From positions 372,001-436,000 of the forward strand of contig NZ_BDMM01000001.1 of assembly GCF_002157625.1 (NCBI RefSeq): a stretch of 64,000 nt of DNA. The letters are read 5' to 3'. Below the pieces are notes generated by a model, which was not told the origin of the DNA, made no database searches, and saw nothing but the letters and a program-made list of their open reading frames with translations. The stretch comes from Brevundimonas sp. SH203 (GTDB lineage: Bacteria > Pseudomonadota > Alphaproteobacteria > Caulobacterales > Caulobacteraceae). The position numbers and the translations under genes were made by a program. Positions 50,849-57,137 of the stretch are shown in pieces; the stretch's first letter is position 1; each line of letters begins with the position of its first letter.

Positions 50849-51544
50849 TCAGCTGTTGCGGGCACACCAGGCGTCGGCGACATCGGCCGCGCGGCAGACG
50901 GCGATGGCCGCCTCCCTGGAAACCGGCCCGACCTTCAATCGAGTCAAGGTCCGCCCCTGAACCTCGACCGGCTCGAACACCGGAGCCAGCGCGGCCAGAT
51001 CGGCGGACGCCTTCAACCGCGTCCAGGCCGTGCGCGCCGCCTGAGGACTGGAATAGGCGCCCAGCTGGATGGTGCGGCCGCCGGTCGGCGCGGGGCGAAG
51101 GCTGGCGTCATGCCTCAAGGGCGCCCGGTCCAGAGCCGGCGACGTCGTGGCGACTTCACGGATCATGATGGGGGCTGCGGCCTGAACCGCAGGCTGAACC
51201 TGGCGGATCACGGCGTCGCGCAGTCCGGCGTCGTCGGCCACCCGCCGCACGCCGGCCTGGTCGTCGCGGGCGTCCCACATGGCGTGGGGGTCCATGACCG
51301 CGACCCTCATGGCTCTGAACCTGGCCGGGCGCAGCCCCGCCGCCTCGACCGACCGCGCAGGCCCGGAATGACCGACGCCGGGCGTCAAAGGCACCTCGAC
51401 CGAGGCCACCTGGTCGGCCAGGGATGTGAATCGATGCGGATCGGTATTGGCCGCCCCGCACGCGGACAGCGCGGCGGAACCGACCAGGGCCGCAATTACG
51501 GCCGGGACGATCTGAACGGGACGGGTCGCTTCTGCGGGCGTCAT
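50849..51544 (-). CDS. SPOR-domain protein
   Basis: 231 aa. N-terminal signal/lipoprotein-like segment (IVPAVIAALVGSAALSAC-GAAN) and a C-terminal SPOR domain (about 150-230: GRTIQLGAYSSPQAARTAWTRL and VEVQGRTLTRLKVGPVSREAAIAVCRAAD), which binds denuded peptidoglycan at the division site. The region between is low-complexity and unrecognised. Directly upstream of mipZ in the same direction, so both are potential division genes. Confidence 0.82.
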   Translation of the reverse strand: MTPAEATRPVQIVPAVIAALVGSAALSACGAANTDPHRFTSLADQVASVEVPLTPGVGHSGPARSVEAAGLRPARFRAMRVAVMDPHAMWDARDDQAGVRRVADDAGLRDAVIRQVQPAVQAAAPIMIREVATTSPALDRAPLRHDASLRPAPTGGRTIQLGAYSSPQAARTAWTRLKASADLAALAPVFEPVEVQGRTLTRLKVGPVSREAAIAVCRAADVADAWCARNS

Positions 51545-51756
51545 GAGAACGACCCTAAGGCCCAGCCTTTTAGGTCTGGTGCATCAACAGGCTTAAGCGG
51601 AAAGGTTAATCCCTTCATCATGTTGGACGCCTCCCCTGCTCGTGATCCGCATGGCGACCGAACGGCGCGCCACCTGTCGGGACTCGAATCGACAAGGCTT
51701 CAGCGTCGGCATGGTTCCGACGAGGCAGGATCGGAGATACGGCGGCCTGAAAAGAA

Positions 51757-51790
51757 AACGGGCCGCATCCGTCGCCGGATGCGGCCCGTT
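51757..51790. terminator. Intrinsic terminator after the chorismate mutase gene
   Basis: A perfect 15-bp stem (AACGGGCCGCATCCG with its complement) closed by a TCGC loop, flanked by A-rich sequence on one side and TTCTTT on the other. It lies 26 bp downstream of the chorismate mutase stop and works in either direction. The rest of 51545-51756 holds no recognisable gene. Confidence 0.85.
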
Positions 51791-51816
51791 CTTTAGATGT
51801 CAGCCGATCCAGAAAG

Positions 51817-52575
51817 TCAGCCGATGGCGCCGACGCAGCCTTCCGCGTCGCCCGGCGACAGTTCGGCGTCGGTCAGGGCGATGGTCCAGCCATGGTGCGT
51901 ATTCAGGCCCCAGCGCCGAGCGCCGCCGCCGTCGCCGGCGTCGCCGCCCGCCGTCACGATGACGCGGCGGCCCTTCGGCAGGGCCGGCGGATCGATCTTG
52001 CCGACGGCCAGCGAGGTCGGGGTCGCACCGCCGTAACCGTCGAAGACGCTCAGCATCGACCATTCGCGACGCAGGCCCATCCACCAGGCGTCCTCGGTAT
52101 TGATGGCCAGGACGGCGATCCCGTGCCCTTCGGCCGCGAAGGCCAGGGCTTTTTGCGGGTCGCGCACCATCTTGATGTCCGCCGCAGCGCCGAAGCGCAG
52201 ACGCGCGCCGTCGAAGGCCCGCGTCGGCTCGATCGGGGCCCAGACCTGGACCTGAAGACGCCCCTGACGCGCCAGGCCCCAGCCGACGATCTCGCGCCAC
52301 AGATGCTCGACCGCCTCGGCGTTCTCGGGCTGGCATTTCGAAAGCATGCGCGACAGCACCGTCTGTTCGCGGTCGGGGCGCAGCTTGGTGTGCGGGCCCG
52401 TCGGGGCGTCCTTGGCGCGGCCCACGGTGGCGGCGACGGCCAGGCGCTGTTCGAACAGGGCCAGGATCTGATCGTCGATCCCGTCGATCTCGGCGCGCAG
52501 GGCGGCCAGCGCCTGCTGTTCGGGGGTCAGCTCGGCCACGTCAGGCCAGACTTGCTGAAGATTGGAAATGGGCAT
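51817..52575 (-). CDS. Chorismate mutase (AroQ-type) with C-terminal domain
   Basis: 252 aa. Residues about 20-110 are an AroQ helical chorismate mutase (LAALRAEIDGIDDQILALFEQRLAVAATVGRAK, and RPDREQTVLSRML), making prephenate from chorismate. The C-terminal region (about 115-252: FGAAADIKMVRDPQKALAFAAEGHGIAVLAI) resembles the periplasmic-binding or prephenate-dehydratase-like extension seen in alphaproteobacterial homologues; its role is unclear. The ATG at 52575 lies 108 bases after a Phe/Tyr-rich leader peptide, so expression is probably attenuated. Confidence 0.9.
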   Translation of the reverse strand: MPISNLQQVWPDVAELTPEQQALAALRAEIDGIDDQILALFEQRLAVAATVGRAKDAPTGPHTKLRPDREQTVLSRMLSKCQPENAEAVEHLWREIVGWGLARQGRLQVQVWAPIEPTRAFDGARLRFGAAADIKMVRDPQKALAFAAEGHGIAVLAINTEDAWWMGLRREWSMLSVFDGYGGATPTSLAVGKIDPPALPKGRRVIVTAGGDAGDGGGARRWGLNTHHGWTIALTDAELSPGDAEGCVGAIG

Positions 52576-52615
52576 GGGACAAGGCTTTCGGCATTCTGAA
52601 TTCGATATGTGCAAG

Positions 52616-52648
52616 GGCGAACAGCCGCTCTGATCCAGAGCGGTCGCC
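52616..52648 (-). terminator. Putative attenuator hairpin upstream of chorismate mutase
   Basis: In the leftward RNA, CCGCUCUG and CAGAGCGG pair (8 bp, GAU loop) and an outer GGCGA/UCGCC pair adds 5 bp with a CUGU bulge. The outer stem shares bases 52645-52648 with a CCGGCG segment that can instead pair with CGCCGG inside the leader peptide (52688-52693). The two folds exclude each other, the layout of an attenuator. There is no clear U-run after the hairpin, so it may act on translation instead. Confidence 0.5.
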
Positions 52649-52683
52649 GGTGAAGCAGTCAGGGACGGTGTGCGCCCGACGCC

Positions 52684-52785
52684 TCAGCCGGCGTATCGAA
52701 AGCCGTAAAAGCCGTAGCCGAAATAGAGGCCGGACACCGCGCGCGAACGGTCGAAAGAAACAGAGAGGGCGCGCTGGCGGGACAT
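52684..52785 (-). CDS. Phe/Tyr-rich leader peptide for the chorismate mutase gene
   Basis: 33 codons, ATG at 52785, TGA at 52684-52686. Residues 21-31 read YFGYGFYGFRY: four Tyr and three Phe in eleven codons, and Phe also at 11. The peptide begins MSRQRALSVSFDRS. It is too concentrated to be chance and lies directly before an aromatic-pathway gene and after a stop codon. The stalled-ribosome logic of phe/pheA leader peptides fits. Too short for ordinary gene finders. Confidence 0.8.
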   Translation of the reverse strand: MSRQRALSVSFDRSRAVSGLYFGYGFYGFRYAG

Positions 52786-52830
52786 GGTCCGGTTCCGGTT
52801 ATGCGGATCGGGTTGCGATCCGTGCGGGCC

Positions 52831-52860
52831 TTAAGACACGCAAAGACCGTGCGCCGTCAA
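52831..52860 (-). promoter_or_regulatory. Candidate promoter for the leader/chorismate mutase transcript
   Basis: Read leftward, TTGACG (52860-52855) and TCTTAA (52836-52831) are separated by 18 bp, close to a sigma-70-type promoter. The -35 box overlaps the stop codon of the prephenate dehydratase gene. A start near 52824 would leave about 39 bases before the leader ATG. Confidence 0.5.
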
Positions 52861-53432
52861 CCCTTGGAAGCACTCAACAGGACGAAGCGCGTTCGATTAT
52901 CGCTCGAATCCTGCAAATCGTTGCGCAGGATCGACAGGCCATAGACTTCCGCCGCCCCGACGGCGGCGATGGCGGCGCGGGTCGGATCGCCGGCTTCGGC
53001 CACATCGCGCGCGGCGCCCGCCGTGTCGAAATGTTCGATGACCTTCATGTGCAGGGTCTTCAGCGTCTGCTCGCACTGGGCCAGGGCGATGGGGTGGCTT
53101 TCGACCGTTCGAACGTCGGACAGCCGCGCGCCGGGCAAGCCCATCAGGGCGTGTCGGATGGGACGCCACACCTCGGCGACCGGCTCCATCCCCAGTTCCC
53201 GCACCAGGGTCGCGGCGGGCTCGACCATGCCGATGGTCGAGTTCTCGACCGGGATCAGGGCGCAACCGCAATCGCCGGACGTCAGGGCCTCAAGCGCGCC
53301 CTCGAAGGTTTCGAACGCCACCGCCTCGTCCCACGGCCGCAAGGCCAGACAGGCCTCGTGACTGAAGGCGCCCGGCGCACCCTGATAGGCGACACGGCCG
53401 GGCTGTTCGTCTTGGTGGGCAGGCGTGTCCAT
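52857..53432 (-). CDS. pheA: Prephenate dehydratase, catalytic domain only
   Basis: 191 aa from ATG at 53432, where GGAAG lies eight bases upstream; ATG at 53438 and 53501 are alternatives. It converts prephenate to phenylpyruvate in phenylalanine synthesis. Family motifs: VAYQGAPGAFSHEA, IPVENSTIGMV, ESHPIALAQC and the essential NRTRF motif at 179-183. The protein ends eight residues after TRF, so the usual C-terminal ACT domain (about 80 residues) that binds phenylalanine is absent. Feedback inhibition should therefore be lost or supplied by another protein. Confidence 0.9.
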   Translation of the reverse strand: MDTPAHQDEQPGRVAYQGAPGAFSHEACLALRPWDEAVAFETFEGALEALTSGDCGCALIPVENSTIGMVEPAATLVRELGMEPVAEVWRPIRHALMGLPGARLSDVRTVESHPIALAQCEQTLKTLHMKVIEHFDTAGAARDVAEAGDPTRAAIAAVGAAEVYGLSILRNDLQDSSDNRTRFVLLSASKG

Positions 53433-53595
53433 ATCCATCACTTCCCGAGCGCGGCCCGGAAAGCCCTTTGTCGTTGCCAGTCGATCAGACAGCGCGTCCA
53501 TGTCCGCGCCGTGACCGCATCCGGTCGTATCTGCGGCGCCCGTCCCCGCCCCACAAGCCGAATGTGGCGCGACGGCGCGCTGTCAGGACGGCGAA

Positions 53596-53621
53596 AGGGC
53601 GACCGCCACGACGGTCGCCCT
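53596..53621. terminator. Terminator between DAHP synthase and pheA
   Basis: AGGGCGACCG and CGGTCGCCCT form a perfect 10-bp stem with a six-base loop, 15 bp downstream of the DAHP synthase stop. No long T-run. It probably separates the DAHP synthase transcript from pheA. Confidence 0.75.
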
Positions 53622-53636
53622 GCTCATTCGCGTCGA

Positions 53637-55007
53637 TCAGGCCGCTTCGGACCGGCTCACGCGGCCCGACTTCAGCCGTTCGGCGACCAGGAAGGCCAGC
53701 TCCAGCGCCTGATCCGCGTTCAGGCGCGGATCGCAATGGGTATGATAGCGGTTGGACAGGTCGTCCTCCGTCACCGCCTGGGCGCCGCCCAGACATTCGG
53801 TGACGTTCTGGCCCGTCATTTCCAGATGCACGCCGCCGGGGTGGACGCCTTCCGCCTCGGCCACGTCGATGAAGGTCCGCACCTCGCCCATGATCCGGTC
53901 GAACGGCCGGGTCTTGTAGCCGTTTCCGGCCTTCAGCGTATTGCCGTGCATCGGGTCGATGGACCAGATCACCTTGCGTCCCGAGGCCTTCACTTCGCGC
54001 ATCAGCTTGGGCAGGCGTTCGCCCACCTTGTCGTGACCGAAGCGGCCGATCAGCGTCAGACGCCCCGAGACATTGTCCGGGTTCAGCGCGTCGATCAGCG
54101 GCAGCAGGTCGTCGGCCGTCATGGTCGGACCGCACTTCACGCCGATGGGGTTCTTGATCCCCTTCATGAACTCGACGTGGGCGCCGTCCAGTTGGCGGGT
54201 GCGTTCGCCGATCCAAAGCATATGGGCCGAGGTGTCGAACCAGTCGCCAGAACCGCCGTCCAGGCGCGTCAGAGCGCTTTCGACGTTCAGCAGCAGGGCC
54301 TCGTGGCTGGTGAAGACCTCGACCCGGCTCAGATCGGGATGGGTCTCGGGCGTGACGCCGACCGCCTCCATGAAGGCCAGGGCCTCGGTGATCTTGTCGG
54401 CCAGTTCACGGTACTGGGCGCCCGCAGCATTGTCGCCGGCGAAGCCCAGCGTCCAGCGGTGAATGTTGTACAGGTCCGCATACCCCCCGCCCGCAAAGGC
54501 GCGCAGCAGGTTCAGCGTCGAGGCCGACTGGTTATAGGCCCGGATCAGACGCTGCGGATCGGGCGCGCGTTCCTCGGGCGTGAAGCCCATGCCGTTGATG
54601 ATGTCGCCGCGATAGCTGGGCAGTTCGACGCCGTCGACCTCTTCCAGCGGCGAGGACCGCGGCTTGGCGAACTGTCCGGCGATGCGGCCCACCTTCACCA
54701 CCGGTTTGCGGCCGGCGAAGGTCAGCACCACCGCCATCTGAAGGATCAGACGGAAGGTGTCGCGGATGTTGTCGGTCGAGAACTCCTTGAAGCTCTCGGC
54801 GCAGTCGCCGCCCTGAAGCAGGAAGGCCTCGCCCTGCTCCACCTGCGCCAGTTTCGACGTCAGGCGGCGGGCCTCGCCGGCGAAGACGAGCGGCGGCAGG
54901 GCGCGCAGCTCGTCCTCGACCACGGCCAGAGCCTTGGGATCGGGATAGTCCGCCGGCATGTGCAGGGCGGTCTTGGTTCTCCAGCTTTCGGGGGTCCAGC
55001 GTGTCAT
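53637..55007 (-). CDS. 3-deoxy-7-phosphoheptulonate synthase, class II
   Basis: 456 aa. First step of the shikimate pathway, condensing PEP and erythrose 4-phosphate. Class II markers: [58 protein letters not shown] and [18 protein letters not shown] at 55007 (MTRWTPESW) is the family start. Followed by pheA and the chorismate mutase gene on the same strand, a small aromatic amino-acid cluster. Confidence 0.95.
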
Positions 55008-55073
55008 CGTGCAAGAATAGAGCTTCACGACCGCCCAAACAACGAAAACAAGAATAGATTTTGCGGCTGAGCC

Positions 55074-55214
55074 TCAGTCTTCGGCGGGCGGCGCCTTTTC
55101 GGTCGCATTCTCGGCCTTGCGCTGGGCCTTGGCCGCCGCCTTTTCGGCCGCCTTCGCCGCCGCCGCCCGTTCGCGCTCCTGCCGCTCGAAACTGTAGTTG
55201 GGTTTGCGGGCCAT
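55074..55214 (-). CDS. Conserved small basic/alanine-rich protein, 46 aa
   Basis: It begins MARKPNYSFERQERERAAAA and continues as a highly charged Ala/Lys/Glu helix, ending KAPPAED. Many alphaproteobacteria have a similar short protein starting MARKPNY-x-FERx. AAAGGA lies eight bases upstream of the ATG. Function unknown. It lies 67 bp upstream of the DAHP synthase gene in the same direction. Confidence 0.75.
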   Translation of the reverse strand: MARKPNYSFERQERERAAAAKAAEKAAAKAQRKAENATEKAPPAED

Positions 55215-55477
55215 GAAGCGTCCTTTCCTCAAATCACGTCGACGACAAGGTGGCGGCAGGCGGCCTCCGACGCAATGCGCCAGTCCGTCCGTCGTCGGAC
55301 CAATGTCAGAGCAGCCGCTCGTGTCGGGTCACGAACTTGGTCAGGGCGTCCCCCATGATAAAAAGGCGAGCGAGAATCGTCATGACCCAAAAACGCCCGA
55401 ACGGCGAACCTGTTCGACGGCGCGAACCTTGGTCGCAGGCGTCGCACCCGCCCGCCCCGGACTATGGTTGGCTCCGA

Positions 55478-55633
55478 TCACAGATCCTTGGCCGGCCTGT
55501 TCGGCTCGTCCGGCTCGCCGTCTGCATCCTTGTCGGTGAAATGAGTCCGGGCCCGCCCCTCGAACACGGTGGACAGCGCGAACAGGGCGCCCGCCAGAAT
55601 CACTGCGCCGACGAAGAGGATGATCAGCATCAT
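55478..55633 (-). CDS. Small membrane protein, 51 aa, with acidic tail
   Basis: One transmembrane helix (about 2-22: MLIILFVGAVILAGALFALS), then FEGRARTHF and an acidic tail TDKDADGEPDEPNRP. The D-K-D-A-D-G spacing resembles half of an EF-hand calcium loop. A start at 55630 (second ATG) is equally possible. Not recognised; supported by the clean helix-plus-tail profile. The 263-bp stretch between this gene and the previous one contains no convincing gene. Confidence 0.6.
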   Translation of the reverse strand: MMLIILFVGAVILAGALFALSTVFEGRARTHFTDKDADGEPDEPNRPAKDL

Positions 55634-55716
55634 GCTGTCTCAACGCGGCGGCACGCGCCGGGTTCAGGCTGACATCCAGCCCGATGCCGCCAGTCGTCAT
55701 TCAAATCTGGAGAAGA

Positions 55717-55791
55717 TGGTGGATGCGACAGGGATTGAACCTGTGACCCCCTCGGTGTGAACGAGGTGCTCTCCCGCTGAGCTACGCATCC
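55717..55791 (-). tRNA. tRNA-Val (anticodon CAC)
   Basis: 75 nt with CCA encoded. Acceptor GGATGCG pairs with CGCATCC; D-arm AGCTCAGCGGGAGAGC; anticodon stem CCTCG/CGAGG with loop TTCACAC giving anticodon CAC (reads GUG); T-arm ACAGG-TTCAATC-CCTGT. All stems pair fully. It lies between the small membrane protein gene and the transporter gene. Confidence 0.95.
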
Positions 55792-55847
55792 ATGCCTTGC
55801 GGAGGCGGCGACATAGCCCGGTCGCCCGGCCCGCGCAAGCGTCCGTT

Positions 55848-57137
55848 TCAGATTCCGGCGGCGCGAACGGTTTCCGGCGTCTCGGCCTCGGGGTCGCCGG
55901 GCAGCCAGGCGACGTGGCCGTCATAGATGTCCTGGTTCAGGATGCCCTCTTCTCTGGCCACCAGAACCGGCACCAGCATCTGTCCGGTCACGTTGGTCGC
56001 GGTGCGCATCATGTCGATGACCCGGTCGATCGCGACGATATAGCCGATGCCTTCCAGCGGCAGGCCGGCGGTGGACAGGGTCAGGGTCAGCATGACGATG
56101 CTGGTCCCCGGCACCCCGGCCGTGCCCAGCGACCCCAGCACCGCCGTCAGGCCGATCAGCACATACTGCGTCAACGTCAGGTCGATCTTGAAATACTGGG
56201 CGATGAAGATCGAGGCGATGGCCGGATAGATGGCGCCGCAGCCGTCCATCTTCACATTGGCGCCCAGGGGCACGGCGAAGGCGGCATAGGCCTGGGGCAC
56301 GCCCAGTCGCTCGACCGTCTGACGCAGGGTGATCGGCAGGGTGCCTAGAGAGGACGAGGTGGCGAAGGCCGTCTGCTGGGCCGCAAACGCGCCTCGGAAG
56401 AAGCTCGTGACCTTCAGACCATGCACCTTCAGCAGGCCCGAATAGACGATCAGGATATGGAACAGGCAGGCGGCGTAGATGGCGCCGATGAACTTCAACA
56501 GCGGCAGCAGCGCCTCCCAGCCATAGCCGCCGACCACCGAACCGATCAGGCCGAACACTCCGATGGGCGTCAGCTGGATCACCCAGCGCGTGATGCGGAA
56601 GATGATGGCCGCCCCCTCGTCCACCAACCGCCGCACCCCCTGCGCCCGGTCGCCCAGCGCCACCAGCGCCATGCCGACCAGGGCCGAGAAGAAGATGATC
56701 TGTAACACCTTGCCCTCGGCCAAGGCGGCGAAGGGATTGGTCGGGACCACGCCGATCAGCACCTCCAGCGGCGTCGGGATGACCCGCTCCTTGACCTCGC
56801 CCAGCGGCAGGTTCGACAGGCCGACGCCCGGATTGATGATATGGCCGAAGGCGAAGCCGACCAGCACGGCCAGCAGGGAGGTGATGGCGAACCAGACGAT
56901 GGTGCGCACGCCCAGCCGCACGGCCCCCGCCCCCTCGCCCAGCTTGGCGATGGAACTGGCGATGGTGAACAGCACCAGCGGCGCCACCACCATGCGGATC
57001 AGGTTCAGATAGACGTCCCCGATCGGCTGCAGCCAGACCTCGGCCCGTTCCCGCAGGATCAGACCCGCCGCTATGCCCAGGACGAAGCCGGCGGCGGTCC
57101 GCTGCCACAGCGGGATTTTCAGAAAACGAGCGAACAT
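55848..57137 (-). CDS. Dicarboxylate/amino acid:cation symporter (DAACS family)
   Basis: 429 aa (ATG at 57137; a GTG three codons upstream is possible). About eight membrane helices plus the two re-entrant hairpins of GltPh-type carriers: the serine-rich AFATSSSLGTLPIT, GANVKMDGCG and GVPGTSIVMLTLTL. The conserved DRVIDMMRTATNVTGQ in the last helix binds substrate and Na+. It should import a C4-dicarboxylate or acidic amino acid with cations. Substrate is not resolved from sequence. Confidence 0.93.
   Translation of the reverse strand: MFARFLKIPLWQRTAAGFVLGIAAGLILRERAEVWLQPIGDVYLNLIRMVVAPLVLFTIASSIAKLGEGAGAVRLGVRTIVWFAITSLLAVLVGFAFGHIINPGVGLSNLPLGEVKERVIPTPLEVLIGVVPTNPFAALAEGKVLQIIFFSALVGMALVALGDRAQGVRRLVDEGAAIIFRITRWVIQLTPIGVFGLIGSVVGGYGWEALLPLLKFIGAIYAACLFHILIVYSGLLKVHGLKVTSFFRGAFAAQQTAFATSSSLGTLPITLRQTVERLGVPQAYAAFAVPLGANVKMDGCGAIYPAIASIFIAQYFKIDLTLTQYVLIGLTAVLGSLGTAGVPGTSIVMLTLTLSTAGLPLEGIGYIVAIDRVIDMMRTATNVTGQMLVPVLVAREEGILNQDIYDGHVAWLPGDPEAETPETVRAAGI

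Follow-up and report, generated by a model that had tools for sequence, protein, structure and literature searches.

In this work, we describe a conserved leader ORF rich in Phe and Tyr codons, and an RNA fold built on it, upstream of the chorismate mutase (CM) gene of Brevundimonas sp. SH203, within the whole stretch of 64,000 nucleotides that was analysed (hereafter the window). This ORF very likely belongs to some amino-acid-responsive control of CM and, in the reading that we consider probable, it is part of a cis-acting translation attenuator through which the supply of charged Phe- and Tyr-tRNA determines how much CM is made. Comparison among relatives, at the level of sequence, demonstrates the conservation of the leader, its codon pattern, its pairing segments and their complementarity, and folding models predict the masking and unmasking of the CM Shine-Dalgarno (SD). 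The computational evidence supports the original prediction of a Phe/Tyr leader peptide with stall-dependent control of CM.

The genes of the locus are arranged leftward in the order class II DAHP synthase (55028-53637), prephenate dehydratase (53501-52857), leader (52785-52684) and CM (52575-51817). The CM gene (51817..52575, minus strand, taken from the ORF list), i.e. the gene presumably under control, encodes a CM_2 domain (PF01817, E 6.3e-16) followed by a C-terminal region, and its product, which would feed the Phe/Tyr pathway, shares 96% identity with the CM of the nearest named record among GTDB-species genomes. About 150 CM residues after the CM_2 domain (51817-52263, minus strand) have no Pfam match; NCBIfam hypothetical-protein models (PRK06034) match part of this C-terminal portion, below their cut-offs. 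Elsewhere in the genome, beyond the window, lies a gene for another stand-alone CM_2 protein (G000:C1:363789-364022; L001 1351-1764).

The leader frame (52684..52785, minus strand) translates to MSRQRALSVSFDRSRAVSGLYFGYGFYGFRYAG. As originally described, it comprises 33 codons, residues 21-31 hold four Tyr and three Phe, and its stop lies 108 bases before the CM start, an ATG at 52575. Screening GTDB-species genomes for the CM protein yielded 74 loci, of which 63 were read for the leader; outside this count were L062 (a contig end, starting at the CM gene), L067-L068 (contig-end fragments) and L069-L076 (distant relatives). A leader ending in FRxAG was present upstream of CM in 63/63 of these Brevundimonas-type loci, FR and AG being the motif by which leaders were found, and each locus had exactly one FRxAG within 320 nt before the CM match, whatever the codons and the frame. 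The end codons (n=63) were TTT in 63, CGA in 63, TAC in 60 or CGC in 3, GCC in 63, GGC in 63 and TGA in 63, i.e. the pattern TTT CGA xxx GCC GGC was constant despite a search in which codons were left free. The constant CGA/GCC and codons 29-33 were also supported by 13/13 leader-bearing stretches of the family sample. Between R and A, 55 distinct tails carried Y (52), R (2) or H (1). One FRGAG with unrelated codons, returned by the codon-free search in L141, was taken as a chance match. In the CM genes of the same loci, TTT accounts for 12 of the 260 codons for Phe, and CGA for 26 of the 1130 codons for Arg; since both are rare there, their constancy in the leader is held by something besides the peptide.

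Substitution patterns separate two parts of the leader. Among 36 distinct 33-codon leaders, pN/pS was 0.98 for codons 2-20, a rough value as these codons are near saturation, and 0.28 for codons 21-28. A search that left the end of the frame open (35 distinct 33-codon leaders) gave 0.98 and 0.29, the latter being favoured by the requirement that codons 21-31 include four or more Phe/Tyr, a demand not made of the 36-leader set; zero changes were found in codons 29-33 of these 35 leaders, although their last codons were not fixed in the search. These comparisons were restricted by length, 19 of the 63 loci having no frame of exactly 33 codons. As judged from these ratios, leader codons 2-20 drift and the aromatic residues of codons 21-28 are kept under selection. 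The 15 codons before Phe29 (55 distinct tails, 77 loci) include 122 Phe and 162 Tyr, i.e. 284 of 825, and 0 Trp, with an aromatic residue at positions -5, -3 and -2 in 41, 49 and 50 of the 55 tails, respectively. Distant relatives rebuild the aromatic run with other codons and lengths (e.g. PFYFYGYFGFRYAG and GYYFYFSRYYFRYAG), consistent with codon-based sensing of Phe and Tyr. The short ORF, rich in the product amino acids and under selection, thus has what characterises the leaders of ribosome-mediated amino-acid attenuators.

Compared with shuffles, the RNA from leader to CM (231 nt) has a folding z-score of -3.0. RNAalifold, given no structure, predicts three helices (P1, P2 and P3) from 42 aligned sequences, and all three are held in the unconstrained minimum free energy (MFE) fold of the window from the leader tail through the CM start (-62.4 kcal/mol). 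The 5' strand of P1 is the anti-SD segment GGCUUUCG (52697..52704, minus strand; codons Gly28-Phe29-Arg30, with TTT/CGA in 63/63 loci), supported by RNAalifold and the window MFE. It is complementary to the 3' strand CGAAAGCC (52583..52590, minus strand), supported by RNAalifold, the alignment and the window MFE, inside which lies the CM Shine-Dalgarno GAAAG (52589-52585), 9 nt before the CM ATG; the genome's own 16S gene ends ...GGATCACCTCCTTTCTAAGG. Helix P2 (52645..52693, minus strand; 52693-52675 with 52663-52645) forms a long hairpin spanning the stop codon of the leader and is found by RNAalifold, the alignment and the MFE. P3 (52625..52643, minus strand) is the hairpin CCGCUCU/AGAGCGG.

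The alignment (A1) retained 42 of 49 representatives, leaving out L015, L019, L020, L025, L027, L065 and L117, and its selection required a GAAAG-like SD and a fixed leader core, which favours P1, so that the invariance of SD and core in A1 is partly built in; of 107 loci, seven had been dropped for having no GAAAG-like SD (L040, L047, L056, L058, L103, L106 and L116). Paired cells amounted to 89.2% in P1, 96.0% in the P2 base, 97.6% in P3 and 92.0% for the whole structure, versus 37-49% when partners were slid by 1-3 columns. P3 is the best-covarying helix, with two-sided changes at 4/7 pairs. Covariation in P1 comes down to a single pair that changed on both sides, in one sequence, and among the 12 P2 base pairs 6 are constant throughout; as P1 and the P2 base are nearly invariant, covariation neither proves nor disproves them. 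When CM starts were set by homology and the SD disregarded, GAAAG occurred at most 20 nt upstream of the start in 59/63 loci, the remaining 4/63 being without it. The leader-SD duplex averaged -12.7 kcal/mol versus -7.0 kcal/mol for shuffled start regions. With GAAAG held fixed (40 of the 42 sequences), the flanking complementarity was mildly unusual (median p 0.14; 10/40 at or below 0.05, p-values that ignore relatedness). In the models, the leader thus supplies a strand that is complementary to the SD and closes it in the free RNA, an effect weaker in the SD-unselected set described below.

The leader segment UUCGAUA has another complement, UAUCGAA (copy A; 52601..52607, minus strand), upstream of the SD. 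In a helix search against shuffles, which took 83 of 87 sequences, this region offered a complement of at least 7 bp in 64/83, with a mean longest helix of 6.8 versus 4.8 in shuffled sequences. Copy A may be a decoy or an alternative partner of the leader segment.

The original prediction had placed the main switch elsewhere, in a competition between the pairing of CGCCGG (52693-52688) with CCGGCG (52650-52645) and the outer stem GGCGA/UUCGC of a hairpin at 52616-52648. The complementarity is correct and invariant in the 42 aligned sequences, and the hairpin exists. However, of these mutually exclusive 2:3 and 3:4 helices, P2 is conserved and the competing outer stem is poorly so: it shows 71% of cells paired and no two-sided change, and forcing it in the window gives -58.6 instead of -62.4 kcal/mol. 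The outer-stem switch was demoted because of this weak conservation and its cost of 3.8 kcal/mol. Judged from the alignment, the conserved output helix is GGCUUUCG:CGAAAGCC at the CM SD, which had been missed. The remarks that the hairpin has no U-run and that it may act on translation both hold up.

The effect of a ribosome on the leader was modelled by masking 32 nt around the A-site codon and computing the unpaired probability of GAAAG (GAGA in two sequences) in the 42 sequences. The mean was 0.11 in free RNA, stayed at 0.08-0.13 for A-site positions between 16 and 6 codons ahead of Phe29, and reached 0.37-0.46 at positions -5 to +5 relative to it. Late stalls produced a gain greater than 0.2 in 27/42 sequences and a loss greater than 0.2 in 0/42, and early stalls a gain in 1/42. 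Opening positions in the window include Tyr24, Phe26, Tyr27, Phe29 and Tyr31, with Tyr21 and Phe22 outside. When the leader-CM interval was shuffled with GAAAG kept (40 of the 42 sequences, the two without GAAAG being omitted), free access was 0.35 versus 0.11 in native sequences and the gain 0.15 versus 0.33; 33/40 sequences exceeded the mean of their own shuffles in gain of access.

In a set that was not selected for the SD (n=64, region -16 to -6), the unpaired probability was 0.28 in free RNA, 0.27 with early stalls, 0.45 with late stalls and 0.41 at the stop codon; 23/64 sequences gained more than 0.2, 56/64 gained something, none lost more than 0.2, and early stalls gave 0/64. RNA folding thus depends, in these models, on the position of the ribosome on the leader. 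The SD-unselected and free-codon checks make the modelled effect smaller and the codon evidence stronger, and our overall assessment is the same with or without them. As the site is almost as open with the ribosome placed at the stop as in a late stall (0.41 versus 0.45), control needs differences in dwell time, and stalling and resting at the stop look alike in these models.

The mechanism that we propose would start from a promoter at the 3' end of the prephenate dehydratase gene, giving a transcript with the leader ORF, the three-way fold (P1, P2 and P3) and CM. In the free RNA, leader GGCUUUCG would pair with CGAAAGCC and bury the CM Shine-Dalgarno GAAAG in P1, while P2 and P3 would keep both P1 strands together. 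When Phe or Tyr is short, a ribosome would stall on uncharged tRNA at about codons 24-31, covering the anti-SD segment and the P2 base and exposing the CM site. When both are ample, it would reach the stop codon and depart, and P1 would re-form. The promoter, the stall on uncharged tRNA, the timing, the regulation in the cell and the role of this CM in Phe/Tyr supply are all inferred. The codon pattern suggests an amino-acid shortage, not an antibiotic, as the trigger of the stall.

A probable leader-CM promoter carries a -35-like TTGACG (52855..52860, minus strand), which overlaps the stop codon of prephenate dehydratase, and a possible -10, TCTTAA (52831..52836, minus strand), assigned by its position 18 nt after TTGACG. 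The consensus scan scored no classical promoter, so that this one is proposed from conservation. Among 92 distinct upstream stretches, TTGAC is separated from the in-frame leader ATG by 34-36 nt in 25 and by 64-80 nt in 67. The shorter spacing is that expected with the ATG as first transcribed base, which suggests a leaderless mRNA for the leader peptide. One or the other class is seen in relatives such as L034, L035, L059 and L107, and a hairpin lies between TTGAC and ATG in those stretches of the 64-80 nt class that were looked at. In the window, a 5'-UTR hairpin, CGGATCG..CGATCCG (52804..52822, minus strand), was noted by eye near the 5' end, which is predicted at about 52822-52824; its stem bases differ in several relatives.

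Control at the level of transcription is the main rival, to which we grant a minor but real chance. The leader would then decide between antitermination and termination before CM, via P3 as a weak intrinsic terminator or via Rho acting on the untranslated C-rich stretch. Proteobacterial amino-acid leaders are classically transcriptional, as in E. coli pheL-pheA (excerpts of PMC11802643), the bases preceding CM, pooled, are rich in C and poor in G (683 and 291 of 1764, respectively), and P3 covaries best of the helices. Yet the terminator scan found no terminator-like site in the leader, nor an intrinsic terminator with a U-run before CM as in the pheL/trpL/hisL type, and intrinsic termination in the leader was discarded on this basis. 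By eye, no U run follows P3 in the aligned relatives. Moreover, the sensing codons have their conserved complement in the SD, and such a partner would be superfluous for termination. The scan returned two terminator-like sites versus 0.8 expected, so that the one located after CM (51757..51773, minus strand) is weak.

Translation attenuation by charged tRNA also has to be weighed against arrest by the nascent chain, in which the C-terminal FRxAG would stall the ribosome on free Phe/Tyr or another signal and open the CM site. The TnaC nascent chain arrests the ribosome in this manner in response to Trp. Such an arrest would account for a residue that varies between R and A when FR and AG themselves occur, a single time per locus, in 63/63 loci, but the TTT and CGA codons are frozen as well, which a peptide motif would not require, and an arrest set off by abundance would, unless inverted, act in the wrong direction on a biosynthetic gene. 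The g3 frame extends beyond AG, so that arrest at the stop codon cannot be general; we regard this explanation as very improbable. The same low probability is given to direct sensing, i.e. the P1-P2-P3 junction as a riboswitch aptamer or regulatory-protein site with an incidental ORF. It would explain invariance beyond pairing needs, in the third positions of codons 29-33 (63/63 loci) and in CCGGCGACCG in the alignment, but strands with a double duty in coding and pairing can explain this too; selection acts on the aromatic codons while the remaining peptide drifts, and the leader has no Rfam match up to E 5. Finally, plain translational coupling or re-initiation, whereby the leader would boost CM translation independently of amino acids, a general role of the kind proposed for leader genes (excerpts of PMC4833913), is scarcely credible, with leader stop and CM start 108 nt apart in the window and neither the Phe/Tyr selection nor the absence of Trp predicted by it.

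Among known systems, the erm/cat translation attenuators, in which stalling within a short leader releases a downstream Shine-Dalgarno from sequestration, are induced by antibiotics. The proposed attenuator resembles them in that a leader stall would free a sequestered SD, their trigger being antibiotics and not amino-acid shortage. The E. coli pheL-pheA transcription attenuator has a terminator. According to excerpts of PMC11802643, its leader peptide precedes a fused CM-PDT and is regulated by Phe-tRNA charging; the likeness lies in a leader peptide upstream of chorismate mutase activity, whereas pheL-pheA is Phe only and fused, and the Brevundimonas leader has Phe and Tyr, an unfused CM and no terminator found by the scan. 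By amino acids, the nearest system is the AroR leader of the C. glutamicum aroF operon, likewise a mixed Phe/Tyr leader peptide on an aromatic-pathway gene. The same excerpts describe it as containing Phe-Tyr-Phe and acting on transcription of a DAHP synthase gene under Phe limitation, Tyr being without effect, unlike the Brevundimonas leader, which precedes CM. AroR also shows that mixed Phe/Tyr leaders have a precedent; the original prediction had called such control of the branch-point mutase less usual.

By architecture, the nearest system is the LEU element of Actinobacteria, located upstream of leuA, which also has an upstream ORF with a run of product-amino-acid codons. According to PMC1262725, this leucine codon run pairs with the leuA SD, terminator-like attenuator elements are described as missing and a pseudoknot is described; on the basis of mutants, its authors held classical attenuation to be unlikely and preferred a protein-binding site. 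The LEU element differs in phylum, sequence and pathway, the Brevundimonas leader having Phe/Tyr instead of leucine codons, a CM gene instead of leuA downstream and a three-way fold. In Caulobacter, ribosome profiling reported leader CDSs at trpS and ilvIH (PMC4117421), and the words phenylalanine, tyrosine and chorismate do not occur in its main text. No description of the Brevundimonas CM leader was found among the matches listed in the open-access PMC literature, subscription literature being outside this scope. The CM leader would be an amino-acid leader attenuator in a new form, not of the terminator type and without Rfam match.

The distribution of the leader was assessed in samples of family, order and class. 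A CM match was found in 177 of 199 family genomes; of 40 CM upstream stretches, drawn from divergent genus members and other genera of the family, 13 had the leader and 27/40 did not. Loss of the frame or paired segments in relatives, which would have spoken against the original prediction, was looked for: frame and P2 are kept within the genus, and the core is absent from these 27 stretches. The exact gapped core pattern was found in 42/199 family genomes, one copy each, i.e. in 36/40 of the window's genus, 2/2 of g3, 1/1 of g9 and 3/3 of g10, so that the leader is known in three further genera of the family. In L117 and L118 (genus g3), the leader frame continues past the AG codons to a later stop and TTTCGATACGCCGG is retained; no convincing P1 partner was found there by eye. 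The exact core 15-mer is single-copy in the 3.1-Mb genome, which, with the 63/63 loci and the folding z-score, speaks against a chance feature. A search of Rfam over 51000-56000, up to E 5, returned nothing for the leader. In the order sample, covariance model R1 matched 45 of 46 genus genomes, the remaining one (G092) being also without a close CM (best E 1.3e-4). Outside the genus, no R1 match was found in 398 order genomes or 385 class genomes, with strict filters that can miss weak copies. The order sample counted 42/398 positive genomes, all within the genus; as it does not list the g3, g9 and g10 carriers, the zero for other genera is uninformative on those.

The ACT domain of prephenate dehydratase usually senses Phe. 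The only prephenate dehydratase found in the genome (52857-53501, minus strand) ends directly after the catalytic domain: its alignment with PDB 6vh5 (prephenate dehydratase:ACT) covers residues 21-203, and that of the enzyme from a leaderless genus 25-300. Of 193 genomes with a prephenate dehydratase match, 31 were read for length, together with G092 (32 stretches), and the C-terminal ACT part was present in 21/32. From match start to stop, 177-184 codons were counted in 8 leader-bearing genomes (g1, g3, g9 and g10) and 275-284 in 21 stretches of leaderless genera, the exceptions being two g17 (176, leaderless) and G092 (178, genus g1, no leader). The Pfam ACT model gave no match even in the long enzymes, so that the ACT loss is deduced from length and the PDB alignments. 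Since the short enzymes form one clade (support 0.911), the loss may be a single event. For this reason, and because g17 is ACT-less without a leader, the ACT-less dehydratase was rejected as independent support, and its association with the leader is suggestive only. The dehydratase adjoins leader-CM in g3, as in the window, and lies elsewhere in g9 and g10; the leader therefore stays with CM.

The loss of ACT in this clade suggests a shift of control from enzyme to mRNA. In an extension of this idea that we hold to be improbable, the frozen FRxAG-stop end would be bifunctional, its two dozen nucleotides providing both a nascent-peptide/amino-acid sensing signal and the anti-SD strand of an invariant three-way junction. 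Instead of tRNA charging alone, a combined peptide-RNA Phe/Tyr sensor would then set CM and take the place of the feedback that disappeared with the ACT domain. The leader represents a compact case of dual coding, in peptide codons and RNA pairing, and its core supports the search model R1. If translation attenuation by charged Phe- and Tyr-tRNA is the true reading, this would be an amino-acid attenuator whose sensing codons double as the anti-Shine-Dalgarno strand, and the chorismate branch point would be controlled for both Phe and Tyr by a genus-wide RNA element.
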